Assembly: GCA_017468365.1 (NCBI GenBank)
Contig: JAFUIS010000001.1
Span: forward strand, 27,720-91,719
Direction of reading: 5' to 3'
DNA from: Oscillospiraceae bacterium
GTDB taxonomy: Bacteria; Bacillota; Clostridia; Oscillospirales; Ruminococcaceae
Length of the DNA stretch: 64,000 nt
Shown here one piece after another: positions 12,064-18,606 of this stretch. Both the position numbers and the translations under genes were made by a program. How positions within the stretch are numbered: position 1 is the first letter of the stretch; each line of letters begins with the position of its first letter. The notes under the pieces are model-generated. The model had not been told where the DNA came from. It ran no database searches and worked only from the letters and a program-made list of their open reading frames with translations.

Positions 12064-12867
12064 ATGAAATTAACTTCAAAAAAGATACTTAATATTTTAT
12101 TTATCGCCGCTCTTGCGGTGGGCGTCATCTTTTACGGAAAAAGCCTTAATGAAAAAGAAGTCGGCGCCCGCGAAAGCGAAGAAGCAAAAGAAATCGTTTT
12201 GGCAAACCGCGAAGAAATATCCGCCGAAAAGGAAGAATTCATCACCGGTTCAAAAAAACCTCCGGTATATGACAGCGTTGTCGAAGAACTTATAACCCTC
12301 GATATTGATGCCCTTCGTGAGGTGAACCCAGAAGTTATCGGCTGGATATATATCCCGAATACCAATATCGATTATCCGGTGCTCCAGCATGAGGACAACC
12401 AGTATTACCTCAAATATACCTGGGAACATACCCGCAACAACATCGGCGCGGTGTTCCTTGACTGTGAAACCTCCGTCGATCTCTCGGATTTCAACACTCT
12501 TGTTTACGGCCACAGGATCAACAACAAGACCATGTTCGGTTCCCTTTATAAGTTCCTTGAAAAAGAATATTTCGATGCCCATCCGAGCATCTATCTCGTC
12601 ACCGACGAAGGCGTTTTTCGCTACGATATTTTCGCTTCGTACCAGACCGGACTTGAAACCATTTCTTTCGCAATGAAGATCGAAACCGAAAAGAAACGCA
12701 AAGAATTCATCAACTTCGCCCTTGACTATGCGGTACAGTCCACCGGCTATGTTCCCAAAACCGACGAACAGTTCCTCACCCTTGCAACCTGCTCTTTTAA
12801 CGACACTTACCGCGATGTTGTCCAGGCGGTGCTCAACGAAGAAGCCTCCGTAAGGTTCGACCAATAA
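12064..12867 (+). CDS. srtB: Class B sortase
   Basis: 267 residues with an N-terminal signal-anchor helix (ILNILFIAALAVGVIFYG). The core IDALREVNPEVIGWIYIPNTNIDYPV is the class B signature. The transpeptidase triad is His150 (VYGHR), Cys243 (LATC) and Arg250 (TYRD). The family cleaves a C-terminal sorting motif and joins the protein to the cell wall. AGGAGG precedes the ATG. The next gene, beyond a riboswitch, is a surface adhesin with a non-canonical sorting region, its most obvious candidate substrate. A strong terminator follows, so the adhesin is transcribed separately. Confidence 0.93.
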   Translation: MKLTSKKILNILFIAALAVGVIFYGKSLNEKEVGARESEEAKEIVLANREEISAEKEEFITGSKKPPVYDSVVEELITLDIDALREVNPEVIGWIYIPNTNIDYPVLQHEDNQYYLKYTWEHTRNNIGAVFLDCETSVDLSDFNTLVYGHRINNKTMFGSLYKFLEKEYFDAHPSIYLVTDEGVFRYDIFASYQTGLETISFAMKIETEKKRKEFINFALDYAVQSTGYVPKTDEQFLTLATCSFNDTYRDVVQAVLNEEASVRFDQ

Positions 12868-12937
12868 TAATACTTATACTTAATAATATATTATAACACT
12901 GATTATATTATATTTCAATAGAACGAACTGTGCATTT

Positions 12938-12964
12938 TTGACATATTTTAATAAAAAATATAAT
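12938..12964 (+). promoter_or_regulatory. Possible promoter in the sortase-adhesin gap
   Basis: TTGACA at 12938-12943 and TATAAT at 12959-12964 with a short 15-bp spacer. It lies just upstream of the 12982-13010 hairpin, so any transcript from it would meet that terminator first. Confidence 0.4.
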
Positions 12965-12981
12965 ATCAATATACAAAATTT

Positions 12982-13019
12982 AAAGCAATATGCTGTCAGC
13001 ATATTGCTTTTTGTTTTAC
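12982..13019 (+). terminator. Terminator after srtB
   Basis: A perfect 13-bp stem (AAAGCAATATGCT/AGCATATTGCTTT, loop GTC) followed by TTTTGTTTT. It separates the sortase from the riboswitch-adhesin unit. Confidence 0.85.
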
Positions 13020-13163
13020 TTTCTGCTAATATAAAAAATGAGCAAATATCTTAATTTTGTTCAGATCTTTTTGCAGTTTTGTCAGAGGGGAGGAAATTTT
13101 CTCAAAAAAGCAACCGCTGCGCGATAAACCCGCGCAAAATATTCATTGAACTTTTTAAAAATG

Positions 13164-13258
13164 AATACCTGAAAAAGGCAAACCGTCCGAAAGGGCGGGA
13201 CGCAAAGCAAGGGACCTAAGGCGGAAAAGTCCGCTATGGCTGCCCGGCTGCCAGTATT
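13164..13258 (+). promoter_or_regulatory. Cyclic di-GMP-I (GEMM-I) riboswitch
   Basis: The GEMM core is readable. Outer stem AATACCTG/CAGTATT (13164-13171, 13252-13258); GGCAAACC at 13177-13184; a hairpin CCGTCC-GAAA-GGGCGG with a GNRA loop; then GGGACGCAAAGC. The second arm carries CCTAAG and TATGG, the two halves of the 11-nt receptor for the GAAA loop. It ends 44 bp before the adhesin start, and a T-rich stretch (13261-13268) follows. I could not see a clear terminator/antiterminator pair, so whether ligand switches expression on or off is open. Two c-di-GMP enzymes are encoded within 9 kb. Confidence 0.93.
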
Positions 13259-13302
13259 TCACTTTTTTACTATATATTGTTTATAGAAAGGGGTAGAAAT
13301 AT

Positions 13303-15639
13303 ATGGCAAACACTATGAAAAAATTTGTAGCAATCCTCATGGCTGCAGTTCTCGGCATGAGCATGGGCCTTCAGGCAATTGCTGCAACCACCACCGAAAC
13401 CGAAACAACCACCGACGGCGAGCTTACCACCACCGTCACAACAACAACCGAAACGACCGAAGACGGAAACACCACTACCGTAGTGGTAACTGTCGAAACC
13501 AAAAAGGACGGCATTGATGAAGACGGTGCAACCGTTGATTATGACGAGACCAAAGTCACAACCACCCAAACTTCCGGTGATACCGTAATCTCCGAAAAAT
13601 GTGTGACTGACGGAAAAGAAAGCCTTAGTTATGATTATACGGAAAAAGTTCCGGACGTTGACGTCGACCTTATCAAAGACGGAAAAGAAATCGAAAATCC
13701 TTCCGGCTCTGCTGAAATAACTCCGGATGCACCTGTTTCTGCGGATCCCAAAGAAGACGAAAACGATACTGAATACGATGAAACCAAAATCGTTTCCAAA
13801 ACAGACCGCGAAGTAAATGCAGAAGTTAATATTGTAGAGGTAGAAGATTATAAGATCATCAGGGATAAAGACGGTAATATTCTTGAAGTATATAAATACG
13901 ATGAAGAAGAAAATACCGGTCTTGAACCCATTTCTTCCCAGTGGGACGATAACAAACAGGATGTTAAAAAACCTGTCGCAGGCATGACAGTTGAAGAACT
14001 GAAAGCACTGGATGATGCTGGTAAACTTCCGGTAGTGCCTATGACTGAAGAAGAAATTAAAGAGGCTTTAAAAATCAGACCCGAAGGATATGATTATCTT
14101 TATGTCGGTTTGGGCGAAGACAGTTATTACGGTGTTGGCTGGAACTTTGTAAGCGACAATTATTACAACGGCTACGGCACCGGAACACACCAGTTTGCTT
14201 TGGGCGATTTCTCCGAAGAAGAAATGAAACTGATCTCTGCTTACTGTGCAGACCTTGAAACTTCTTCCAGAAAGGGATATTGGTATACTGTGCAGAATGT
14301 AGAGGATGCCGATTACTATGATGAAGAAAGTGCAAAGCACATTCGCACCATTGCTTCCAATGCATACTGGGGCGTAATTGACGATCCCGAAACCAAAGAA
14401 GCCGAATTCGGAAGCCTTGCAGCTGTCAAAGCTATGATGGCAGAAGCAAAAGATGCCGACGGTAACCCGGTATTTACTGAGGCACAGATTAACGGTTTGA
14501 CTGAAGGCGAGGCTTTGACCGCAAGCCAGATGGCTATCTGGAAATACGGCAACCCTTATCAGAAAGAGGACGGCGAAACCATTTACATCGATGCGGATAC
14601 CGTTGATTATAACAGGTATCAGGGCAGATACGATTGGACTTACAGTTCTCAGCATATAAAAGATAACATCAGAGAAAGAATCATTGCTGAAAAGCAGCTT
14701 GACGTAGAGAATATGACCGAGGAAGAACTCGAGGCTCTCAATAAAATGGTTAGCGATCAGTACAGCACTGAACGCGCAGCAATTATGGGCCGCATCAACG
14801 CTCTGGCAAATTATCTGATGAATCTGACTCAAACCGATGATCAGAGTGAATCCACTCAGATTATCAATGAGAAGAATTATATCGAAGATATGTCCATGAC
14901 CGTTGGCTCTATGGTTAAAGAAAACGCGGACGGCAACGGCAACAATAGCTATAATGTGGATTTCACATTCTCGCTGGTAGTTACCCCCGGTGAAAAAGAT
15001 GACCTTATCATTAAAGTTATTAACAGCAACGGAGAGGTTGTAGGAAGCGGTAGAGTTGCAGGTGACGGAAGTCAGGATGATGGCTTTAATGATGTATACT
15101 ATGACGAAAAAACAGATAGCTACACTTTGACCGGTCTTGAACTTATTGAAGGTTCTGACACCAAATTCAACCTCAAGCTGGAAGGCGCCCAGTATCTTGA
15201 AAGAGGCGTTTATATTTATACTTCCGAAGTCCGCGACGATACTCCTTCCCAGACTTTTGTCGGTATAGCCGAAGGATATAAGAGCGTTGATACCGCAATG
15301 GAAATCGATCTTTCCTTCAACGTTGAAGAAGGCACCGTAACCACTTTGCGCGAATGGCACAGCGAAGGCGATCCTGTTTACAGAATCATTGACGGCGACG
15401 AAGAATTTGAGGAAGAGGAGATCCCGCTTACTCCCGTTCTTTATAACGCAGAACCCAATCCTCCCGCAGAAAAACTCGATGTTCCTTCCGACACCGAAAC
15501 CATTCTTGATGAGGACGTTCCGCTCGCAGCAGTACCCGGACTTGGCGATGAATCTTCCATGTGGCTGATGGTTGCAGTATTTGCATTCGTTGGTTTTATG
15601 GCACTTAACCTCCCTGAGAAAAAACGCGAAGAAGACTGA
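13303..15639 (+). CDS. Thioester-domain (TQXA) surface adhesin with divergent sorting signal
   Basis: 778 residues. A signal peptide (KFVAILMAAVLGMSMGLQAIAA) is followed by a Thr-rich stalk. The thioester domain has Cys315 in AYCADLE and Gln409 in TASQMAIW, the pair that forms the reactive internal thioester used for covalent host attachment by Gram-positive adhesins. A beta-sandwich-like region follows. The C terminus is Pro-rich, then VPLAAVPGLGD, a hydrophobic helix and a charged KKREED tail. Relatives usually carry a VPxTGD-type motif; here the Thr is lost. It is preceded by a c-di-GMP riboswitch and a class B sortase gene. An AAAGGGG ribosome site lies upstream. Confidence 0.88.
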   Translation: MANTMKKFVAILMAAVLGMSMGLQAIAATTTETETTTDGELTTTVTTTTETTEDGNTTTVVVTVETKKDGIDEDGATVDYDETKVTTTQTSGDTVISEKCVTDGKESLSYDYTEKVPDVDVDLIKDGKEIENPSGSAEITPDAPVSADPKEDENDTEYDETKIVSKTDREVNAEVNIVEVEDYKIIRDKDGNILEVYKYDEEENTGLEPISSQWDDNKQDVKKPVAGMTVEELKALDDAGKLPVVPMTEEEIKEALKIRPEGYDYLYVGLGEDSYYGVGWNFVSDNYYNGYGTGTHQFALGDFSEEEMKLISAYCADLETSSRKGYWYTVQNVEDADYYDEESAKHIRTIASNAYWGVIDDPETKEAEFGSLAAVKAMMAEAKDADGNPVFTEAQINGLTEGEALTASQMAIWKYGNPYQKEDGETIYIDADTVDYNRYQGRYDWTYSSQHIKDNIRERIIAEKQLDVENMTEEELEALNKMVSDQYSTERAAIMGRINALANYLMNLTQTDDQSESTQIINEKNYIEDMSMTVGSMVKENADGNGNNSYNVDFTFSLVVTPGEKDDLIIKVINSNGEVVGSGRVAGDGSQDDGFNDVYYDEKTDSYTLTGLELIEGSDTKFNLKLEGAQYLERGVYIYTSEVRDDTPSQTFVGIAEGYKSVDTAMEIDLSFNVEEGTVTTLREWHSEGDPVYRIIDGDEEFEEEEIPLTPVLYNAEPNPPAEKLDVPSDTETILDEDVPLAAVPGLGDESSMWLMVAVFAFVGFMALNLPEKKREED

Positions 15640-16994: not shown

Positions 16995-17031
16995 AAACAC
17001 ACAAAACACCAAATGCTCTGCAAAAAAATAA

Positions 17032-17072
17032 CCCCGGAAACCTTGATTTTACAAGGCTTCCGGGGATTTTTC
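17032..17072 (+). terminator. Terminator after the M20 gene
   Basis: Long near-perfect hairpin: CCCCGGAA (17032-17039) and CCTTG pair with CAAGG and TTCCGGGG (17058-17065), followed by ATTTTTC. It marks the last host sequence before the guaA-linked element. Confidence 0.88.
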
Positions 17073-17075
17073 ATT

Positions 17076-17087
17076 TTATTCCCACTC
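17076..17087. repeat. Left attachment-site core (copy of guaA 3' end)
   Basis: TTATTCCCACTC, identical to 18595-18606. Here it is followed by non-coding DNA rather than guaA, so it is the distal junction. Confidence 0.7.
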
Positions 17088-17188
17088 GCTCCCGAAAAAT
17101 AAATCTTAAACAGATTTGCTTATGGGATTTAGTTCAAGGTCTTAGGATTATTTCCATTATTCAGACAGCAGAGGCTATCTGATTTTTT

Positions 17189-17207
17189 TGTTGCCATAGT
17201 GTTGCCA
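17189..17207. repeat. Paired TGTTGCCA octamers, left end
   Basis: TGTTGCCA at 17189-17196 and 17200-17207, starts 11 bp apart, about 100 bp inside the left core. The arrangement fits tyrosine-integrase arm-type binding sites. Confidence 0.6.
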
Positions 17208-17244
17208 TGACATTTCACTTTAGTACAATATCGATCAAGATTTG

Positions 17245-18432
17245 TTATTTGCCTCTAATCCTCTTATACTCCATATACTTACGCGCACTTGCCTTATCAT
17301 AAAGGTTTTCAAGGAACGTTTCATCCTGCTTCATTGACGCCATTACAATGTCAACGCACTCATCGTTTGTAAATACCCTGAACAAGTCGGGAATGCTGAA
17401 ATCAGCAAACGCAGAACTCAATTCACTTCTCAATTCATCATCTGACAAATCAAGAGTTTCTTGGAGTCCCTTGAAGTTGTATGCCAATGGCGAAGAACAG
17501 AAAGAATGGCTGTATGGGGCGATGTGCTCCAGTTTCATTTTATATAGACGCCAATAGAAATCATCCTTCTTATTCGTAAAGAAAGACCCCATACTGTTTT
17601 CCATTAAGCTCAGGTCATAATATACAGCTTCGGCCAGAAGTGCAAACGCTGTCTTAGGCTTGTTTTCTTCCAATAGGAACTCGTACATGGAGTGCCTTAG
17701 ATTTCTATACAAACCAAAGTCATAGTTCTGGGCATGAATACCACTCTGTTCATTGAAATAACCCCACAGAACATCCCGATAGGGATAGTGGGTTTGAGCA
17801 ATACGATGGTTCATCTCCCAGACACTCATATACCTATGACGGTGCAGGTACGGCACGTACTGGTTGTCCTTCAATTCCTGTTCACCCTTGGAGGTCAACT
17901 TGAAGAAACGCTCTGGGTATTTGGCAGACAACTCATTATGGTCTGCTACACCCAGCAGTCTATCAATCAACTCAGCCTTTTTACCAGATACCTTTTCATT
18001 GACCAGCTTGAGTTCGTCCTTAATCTCGCCCAACTTTAGCCGTTCAAGAACGGAACGTAAATCACCCGGTTCAATGAAACCACGCTCATACAAGGAGTCC
18101 AAGACGCTCTGAGGACCTTTCACCGAATACTGATAATACCAAAACCCCTGAAAGCTGTTGTCAGAAGTTTTGTAGGTGTGGGCATAGTCCAGCATCAGAA
18201 TCTCGTGGGGATACAGACCACCCTTTGACGGCGTTGCCTGCATCAGCAATTCTTCCAGAGGGGGAGGGCAATCTACCTCAGTAGTAATCTCCACCAATGG
18301 TGTCTTTGCAACGACTTCCTTCTTCACATATTCTGGTGCTGGTGGTGTGTAGGATCCAGAATTTACGGGTACTTTCGTCACACTATTATCAACGGGATTT
18401 GACTTCTTCTTGAATAAATCAAACAGCCCCAT
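17245..18432 (-). CDS. SAP-domain protein of unknown function (element cargo)
   Basis: 395 residues; AAGGGGG lies before the ATG. The N terminus (MGLFDLFKKK) is followed by a Pro/Val-rich linker, then a helical region. Around residues 130-165, LKLGEIKDELKLVNEKVSGKKAELIDRLL fits the SAP helix-extended-helix pattern that binds DNA in other proteins. The remaining 230 residues match nothing I recognise; aromatic-rich helices (YWRLYKMKLEHIAPYSHSF) dominate. It is the only gene between the two guaA-derived att cores. It nearly lacks the TTCCG/CGGAA words that saturate the flanking genes, which supports transfer. A role in element maintenance or host defence would be conjecture. Confidence 0.82.
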   Translation of the reverse strand: MGLFDLFKKKSNPVDNSVTKVPVNSGSYTPPAPEYVKKEVVAKTPLVEITTEVDCPPPLEELLMQATPSKGGLYPHEILMLDYAHTYKTSDNSFQGFWYYQYSVKGPQSVLDSLYERGFIEPGDLRSVLERLKLGEIKDELKLVNEKVSGKKAELIDRLLGVADHNELSAKYPERFFKLTSKGEQELKDNQYVPYLHRHRYMSVWEMNHRIAQTHYPYRDVLWGYFNEQSGIHAQNYDFGLYRNLRHSMYEFLLEENKPKTAFALLAEAVYYDLSLMENSMGSFFTNKKDDFYWRLYKMKLEHIAPYSHSFCSSPLAYNFKGLQETLDLSDDELRSELSSAFADFSIPDLFRVFTNDECVDIVMASMKQDETFLENLYDKASARKYMEYKRIRGK

Positions 18433-18451
18433 ATTATCCCCCTTTTTGCAG

Positions 18452-18487
18452 TAAGAGCCCTATGATAAATAAATCATAGGGCTCTTA
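18452..18487 (-). other. Strong inverted repeat in the 5' leader of the SAP gene
   Basis: Perfect 15-bp arms TAAGAGCCCTATGAT/ATCATAGGGCTCTTA around AAATAA, ending 20 bp upstream of the SAP gene start. It has no T-tract on either strand, so it is not an ordinary terminator. It may be an operator, an mRNA stabiliser or a relic of a deleted gene end. Confidence 0.7.
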
Positions 18488-18516
18488 TAATCCACTTGCA
18501 ATTATTCTCTTAAAAA

Positions 18517-18535
18517 TGTTGCCATTTTGTTGCCA
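18517..18535. repeat. Paired TGTTGCCA octamers, right end
   Basis: TGTTGCCA at 18517-18524 and 18528-18535, again 11 bp apart, 60 bp from the right core. Same orientation and spacing as the left pair. Confidence 0.6.
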
Positions 18536-18594
18536 CAAGCAGCTTCAAAAGTTTGAAAACCCTTGATATTACAGGTTTTTTTCAACCTCTGAAA

Positions 18595-18606
18595 TTATTC
18601 CCACTC
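18595..18606. repeat. Right attachment-site core inside guaA
   Basis: TTATTCCCACTC covers the guaA stop and last three codons, so integration leaves the gene intact. Confidence 0.7.

Follow-up and report, generated by a model that had tools for sequence, protein, structure and literature searches.

The 3' end of the guaA gene in the 64-kb window, by which we mean the whole stretch of DNA analysed, is occupied by a 1,531-bp cassette whose two ends match those of 14 other cassettes. As far as can be read from their sequences, these elements form a family with constant ends, exchangeable cargo and no integrase of their own. On balance, we favour the interpretation that they are helper-dependent, CIME-like, non-autonomous integrative cassettes that often carry defence cargo. 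The features of the window locus are listed in Table 1.

Table 1. Features of the cassette and its surroundings in the 64-kb window
Feature	Position	Strand	Remarks
Whole cassette, core to core	17076..18606	-	1,531 bp, in guaA 3' end; 12-bp duplication
Target gene guaA	18595..19596	-	333 aa; NF000848 475 bits, profile positions 196-512
Proximal core	18595..18606	-	GAGTGGGAATAA on guaA strand; contains guaA stop codon
TGGGAAT in proximal core	18597-18603	-	Likely crossover region
Conserved proximal end	18487..18594	-	nhmmer 110.6 bits to family profile (window is 1 of 13 seeds)
Proximal arm-type octamer 1	18528..18535	+	TGTTGCCA; TGGCAACA on guaA strand; start 71 bp from core
Proximal arm-type octamer 2	18517..18524	+	Octamer match
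Hairpin between proximal arms and cargo gene	18453..18486	-	Fold z-score -5.17; 0/200 shuffles as good
Cargo gene, 395 aa	17245..18432	-	SAP domain residues 129-160 (about 17953-18048)
Distal arm-type octamer 1	17200..17207	+	120 bp from distal core
Distal arm-type octamer 2	17189..17196	+	Octamer match
Conserved distal end	17088..17207	-	nhmmer 121.9 bits to family profile (window is a seed)
Distal core, duplicate of guaA end	17076..17087	-	TGGGAAT at 17078-17084
Terminator-like hairpin, flank right of distal core	17032..17065	-	Outside cassette

The sequence-only reading of this locus had described an exact duplication of the guaA 3' end with an octamer pair, one helical turn apart, inside each copy and a single SAP-domain gene in between, with a composition unlike that of its neighbours, and each of these observations was borne out. 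The two cores are the only exact copies of TTATTCCCACTC in the window, and their starts are separated by 1,519 bp. The octamer TGTTGCCA is present at the four positions listed and absent elsewhere in the window, and the four copies form two pairs (11 bp start to start), each placed just inside one of the 12-bp repeats. Given that four or more octamers arise by chance in 14 of 100 shuffles of the window, their number alone is not rare, and it is the paired placement inside both repeats that matters. The same geometry was found again at other loci, and the exact pair TGGCAACA-N3-TGGCAACA occurs in the 1.86-Mb assembly only at the two ends of the window cassette. Between the repeats there is one long ORF, in which the SAP domain covers only the short segment indicated in Table 1. 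The compositional difference is real but modest: the G+C content of the cassette is 0.419, and none of 41 equal-length bins of the window is lower (mean 0.458, sd 0.024). Promoter-like matches are more numerous than in shuffles (11 versus 3.4), and none of the 11 stands out as a promoter for the cargo gene. The guaA product of the window aligns with the family profile only in its synthetase portion, starting at position 196, and those of several other hosts exceed 500 aa.

To the right of the cassette, the 68 bp counted from the distal core (17020-17087) are identical to sequence found in three congeners (L034, L039 and L044) where a different element borders guaA; an integrase was seen in L034 and L039. 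The match stops just before the arms, and this flank is perhaps the scar of a lost element. When an empty site was sought among the congeners, guaA was found to be followed by an M20 peptidase gene in G007; the window flank, compared with this candidate, matches the end of another element instead. Elsewhere in the window (12064-15639), a 267-aa sortase-like protein precedes, in our reading, a secreted Thr-rich protein of 778 aa that carries an anchor at its C-terminus, and the two are likely a sortase-substrate pair.

When 394 genomes from the order were first searched by pattern, six were hit, among them G293 with a nearly identical guaA-side end; its locus and that of the congener G005 have the same two ends with different genes between them. 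A scan of a genome contig collection with the guaA-side pattern returned 93 stretches, which include 16 of the 17 cassette loci recognized in this study. These 17 loci (window included) were delimited by an nhmmer search with a proximal-end profile built from 13 cassettes, the window among the seeds: they score 103-121 bits (107-121 for the four that were not seeds), and the next best of the loci compared scores 48. Fifteen cassettes could be read end to end (window, G005, G293, G462-G471, G473 and G475), whereas G472 runs into a contig end and the ends seen in G474, which belong to different cassettes, are on separate contigs. Cassettes were seen in two of 15 genomes of the genus, two of which are unreadable at the site, and in two of the 394 genomes of the order by exact pattern, which is a lower bound. 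Thirteen of the 16 collection loci come with a title, of which nine give a gut site (rectum, colon or cecum) and an animal (sheep, goat, roe deer or water deer); the other four name no host. The two cassette-end patterns had no match in viral contigs.

The complete cassettes measure 1,138 to 2,475 bp and contain one or two main genes (n = 15), enclosed by a proximal end of about 110 bp (87-98% identical) and a distal end of 131 bp (82-99% identical). Together, these ends look like a complete tyrosine-recombinase att pair, with a guaA-derived core and two octamers per end, and across the 15 cassettes the core and the paired arm repeats recur inside each end at fixed spacing. Proximal arms lie 71 bp from the core in 14 cassettes and 69 bp in G468. 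The distal pair lies 119-120 bp from the core in 14 of 15, with one or two octamer mismatches in G468, G471 and G473, and in G475 only one distal octamer remains. The last stop codon is followed after 3-79 bp by the distal arms, and a hairpin of at least 13 pairs separates the proximal arms from the gene in 14 of 15 cassettes (in G470 if a later start codon is assumed). At proximal cores, variation derived from the host (GAA or GAG) precedes TGGGAAT on the left, and at distal cores (TAA, TGA or TAG) it follows on the right; one mismatch, in G470, is inside this heptamer. In our reading, this distribution would confine strand exchange to about 7 bp, and the crossover probably falls within TGGGAAT.

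No integrase was detected by a six-frame search of the 15 cassettes (best E = 0.73), and the same search recovered four of four positive controls at E <= 1e-27. Likewise, a Pfam scan of all 12 cargo types, covering ORFs of at least 80-90 aa, revealed no mobilisation families. Integrase ORFs are present in 27 of the 93 pattern-scan stretches and in none of the 16 that carry cassettes.

The 12 cargo types of the 15 complete cassettes are unrelated by blastp except for two bSEFIR proteins at 30.5% identity. SAP cargo is found in three cassettes (window, G463 and G465), with its 3' part alone in G474, AbiTii is found in two (G473 and G475), and the ten other types occur once each. The latter comprise bSEFIR (G467), an Abi_C protein with SEFIR/bSEFIR (G468), DUF6602 with PD-DExK and NucC profile matches (G293), a DEDDh/PDC-S48 exonuclease (G469), weak Apea-like (G470) and Cthe_2314-like (G462) HEPN matches that are both below the Pfam cut-off, and four types for which no match was credible (G005, G464, G466 and G471), with two genes each in G464 and G466. 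The G472 fragment matches DUF6414 and, more weakly, HSP90. Five of the 12 types match PADLOC families below 1e-14, namely bSEFIR twice (5e-70 and 5.6e-59), the DEDDh/PDC-S48 protein (9.9e-40), the NucC-like PD-(D/E)xK protein (1.1e-36) and AbiTii (3.8e-15), and seven types, SAP included, have no strong defence match. As a control, one of ten neighbouring window proteins passes the same threshold, via its HTH domain. Both bSEFIR and AbiTii act against phages, and the cargo matches as a whole point to defence, with the reservation that the sample is small.

For the 395-aa SAP protein itself, Pfam finds the SAP domain only (E = 2.4e-6), PHROGs links it weakly to a family without assigned function (E = 2.6e-5), NCBIfam gives nothing, and no PADLOC family appears up to E = 1. 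Among solved structures, a myocardin-like protein matched through its SAP domain (E = 5.5e-4), and the other 25 matches have E >= 0.12. It had been proposed that close relatives with the SAP gene at unrelated loci, lacking the 12-bp duplication, would speak against this reading of the element. The close SAP copies seen (94-98% protein identity) lie inside the same cassette; distant relatives (27-40% identity, in three of 99 other genomes searched) are found elsewhere. One of the latter is near XRE-like and protease-like genes and an integrase, by our own reading of the ORFs. Relatives were also seen in phage records of Streptococcus (28.5%) and Latilactobacillus (28.6%) and on one plasmid (30.5%), and the search of viral contigs gave no close relatives. 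The SAP gene shares its cassette frame with bSEFIR, AbiTii and other cargo, and this, with the distant relatives in phage records and near an integrase, associates it with defence genes and mobile elements. Since the cargo of the family is often phage-defence-like, we class the SAP protein as the product of a predicted defence gene.

The guaA site also receives elements with other arms. One core and mostly one spacing, with many arm octamers, are seen at L034, L037, L040, L080, L093, L095, L100, L108 and L131. In guaA elements of other arm types seen in congeners, repeats agreeing at 6 to 8 of 8 positions start 68-71 bp from the core. Such a repeat is present in 11 of 13 congeners with a readable guaA end (window included; G010, which stops short, and G011, a divergent copy, were left out), two of them at only 6 of 8. 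The remaining two congeners have equally good repeats at 87 and 96 bp, and the repeat alone is therefore weak evidence; by chance, a repeat of at least 7 of 8 at offsets 66-76 was met at 70 of 20,000 random window positions. For cores that are not at guaA, 14 of 20 rows have repeats 119-121 bp before the core with different octamers (TGGCTACA, TGATACTA, TGATAACA, CGTACTAA, TGAGTGCA/TGAGTACA and others), and the other six have them elsewhere, including two strong ones at 124 and 131. It is as if integrase arm specificity diversified at one fixed guaA site.

Some cassettes follow the distal end of another element rather than guaA itself, which indicates that tandem arrays form. In G474, the proximal end of a cassette and the distal end of another, with SAP cargo, lie on different contigs (L143 and L206), which suggests two cassettes in tandem. 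Contigs end about 130 bp past guaA in G002, G004, G012 and G469, as expected if the site varies within populations.

A full island with the same arms and an integrase had been named as something to look for, and such elements do exist at guaA elsewhere. They encode an Arm-DNA-bind_4 integrase with SAM-like and catalytic domains together with mobilisation genes (NikA-like, AAA_25 and Mob_Pre in G110, Mob_Pre in G448, Relaxase in G453). A small putative excisionase with weak HTH matches was seen in the G110 element, and in our reading same-arm elements carry a divergent XRE-type gene. Two elements are complete as judged by their arms, in G448 (54099-73857, about 19.8 kb, with a further same-arm pair 138 bp past the distal pair) and in G453 (90789-99270, about 8.5 kb). 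The non-cassette end closest to the distal profile belongs to G110 (66 bits), and we interpret it as the probable other half of a guaA IME that is split in this assembly. Among the matches listed, pairwise identity between integrases of guaA elements is 47-98%, whether or not their arms agree. Same-arm IMEs at guaA are the likely helpers.

Same-arm elements need not all be helpers, however: 50 of 77 non-cassette stretches show no integrase in the sequence at hand. Of these 50, 27 extend less than 1.5 kb downstream and 17 extend at least 2.5 kb past the core (L057, L065, L066, L069, L074, L083, L094, L095, L096, L111, L118, L121, L125, L130, L134, L142 and L149); these 17 may be further integrase-less elements, or may have their integrase gene elsewhere. 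Among the 17 cassette hosts, a guaA-type integrase was found in two (E <= 1e-30), beside guaA in G463 and on the contig of the cassette in G462. Both are 47-48% identical to the G110 query and therefore probably belong to another arm type. None was found in the other 15 hosts, the window genome among them, and no same-arm helper adjoins a cassette in the flanks read. The window genome has seven phage-integrase matches, six with a long ORF, which were considered as helpers and rejected; none matches the G110 integrase at 1e-30, and their identity to guaA-type integrases is 19-28% over at least 170 aa among the matches listed. The missing helper in cassette hosts is the main weakness of our interpretation, although the assemblies are in many cases incomplete and a helper may be present only transiently.

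Comparison between hosts indicates that cassettes have spread recently across divergent genomes. In the ten hosts with cassette and guaA on one contig, the 3' parts of guaA are only 67-87% identical. Nevertheless, the middles of the AbiTii cassettes of G473 and G475 agree at 1221 of 1230 bases (99.3%; guaA 72%), and that of the window SAP cassette is 96.1% identical to the G463 middle (GuaA 80%) and 98.3% identical to the G465 middle (GuaA 82%). The window distal end is 98% identical to that of G293 (guaA 74%). The SAP cargo occurs with two distal-end subtypes (98.5% identity between window and G463, 87.0% between window and G465), which implies that ends and cargo recombine.

The sequence-only reading had left two possibilities for the element, a collapsed island that kept both att arms or a minimal satellite mobilised in trans. 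The 15 same-ended, integrase-less cassettes with 12 cargo types, in hosts with guaA down to 67% identical, favour the satellite and disfavour a one-off collapse. A broader version of the decay idea, in which every cassette is an independent, immobile IME remnant that lost its integrase and transfer genes and kept attL and attR, has some merit and is in our judgement unlikely. CIMEs are characterized in the relevant section of PMC5704250 as decayed elements that keep attL and attR without integrase or transfer genes, and this fits the anatomy of the cassettes, which retain both att sites, lack integration and transfer genes and can have other elements in tandem at the site. The lack of a guaA-type integrase in most cassette hosts and the presence of other integrase-bearing elements at guaA in the same genus also accord with decay, and the distal end is related to that of G110. 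However, 15 separate deletions that leave the same ends (about 110 and 131 bp) around one or two intact genes would be improbable, no integrase remnant is found in the cassettes, and the near-identical AbiTii cassettes in hosts with strongly diverged guaA show that spread took place after the small form arose. CIMEs are by definition decayed; the cassettes make up a family in which the ends are constant and the 12 cargo types, each of one or two genes, can be interchanged.

No better are the prospects of a model in which RecA swaps cargo between a resident cassette at guaA and an incoming one through their conserved ends, with little site-specific recombination today. Part of the spread could come about without an integrase if the shared ends recombine homologously, and the similarity of the ends, the two distal-end subtypes linked to SAP cargo and the ends of two different cassettes in G474 are all compatible with it. 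Yet most sampled genomes have no cassette, so that gain needs an insertion step, and high similarity begins at the core and not in guaA. That short repeats coincidentally flank a horizontally acquired gene, or that assembly created them, can practically be dismissed even though the hosts with titles are mostly metagenome bins and several contigs are interrupted close to guaA, because ten cassettes are on one contig with guaA and the same end recurs in 17 assemblies.

Under the helper-dependent interpretation, the integrase of another element, most likely a guaA-integrating IME with TGGCAACA arms, would bind the arms of the cassette, the candidate helper supplying the Arm-DNA-bind_4 integrase and the small putative excisionase. 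This integrase would release the cassette in circular form or integrate it behind guaA, where the newcomer would provide the guaA stop codon, a hairpin and one or two cargo genes in guaA direction. We infer that movement from cell to cell would be accomplished with the helper, either as a tandem or during a shared mating event. Cargo would be exchanged between the constant ends, probably by recombination of co-resident cassettes.

Several known systems share some of these attributes. A table in PMC5704250 includes IMEs at the guaA 3' end (ATE-1, the IncP island and Gisul2), which have the same target and recombinase class as the cassettes, and the local IMEs share their arms as well. In contrast to IMEs, which have their own integrase and mobilisation genes, cassettes carry neither integrase nor relaxase. 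According to the portions of PMC9376610 that treat it, the GIsul2 integrase at guaA moves a CR2-sul2 unit that is bounded by guaA-type att sites and is widely distributed in proteobacteria, and excision circles were demonstrated. There too, the integrase of a guaA island acts on the unit, but CR2-sul2 brings its own rcr2 and is contained in GIsul2, whereas the cassettes stand without an island. Integron cassettes and CALIN, as outlined in part of PMC11389934, are likewise single genes between recombination sites that depend on an integrase in trans and exchange cargo; the cassettes described here differ by their guaA-type core, arm octamers at two ends and guaA target. P4-like satellites and PICMIs are also small and helper-dependent, and P4-like ones carry anti-phage genes, as far as the pertinent parts of PMC9122126 and PMC10803314 describe them, but our cassettes have no integrase, and no phage link was found for their ends. 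Among the best matches in open-licence papers, there was no description of such a cassette family.

If our interpretation is correct, single genes can be mobile through just two short att ends borrowed from an IME, and the cassettes would be for integrative elements a counterpart of MITEs and of CALIN arrays, both analogies being taken from PMC11389934. The family also yields a sequence rule for finding further members (a core, with arm pairs set about 71 bp inward at one end and about 119-121 bp inward at the opposite end), a set of candidate defence genes unaccompanied by other cargo, and substrates of one to two kilobases with which trans mobilisation by IME integrases becomes directly testable. 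More tentatively, and with rather less confidence than we place in the helper-dependent interpretation, gut Clostridia may run an integron-like economy without integrons, in which guaA serves as the platform, IMEs provide the recombinase and integrase-free cassettes with constant ends carry interchangeable single defence genes between distant hosts, and in which most of the unknown cargo, including the SAP gene, would represent undiscovered defence.
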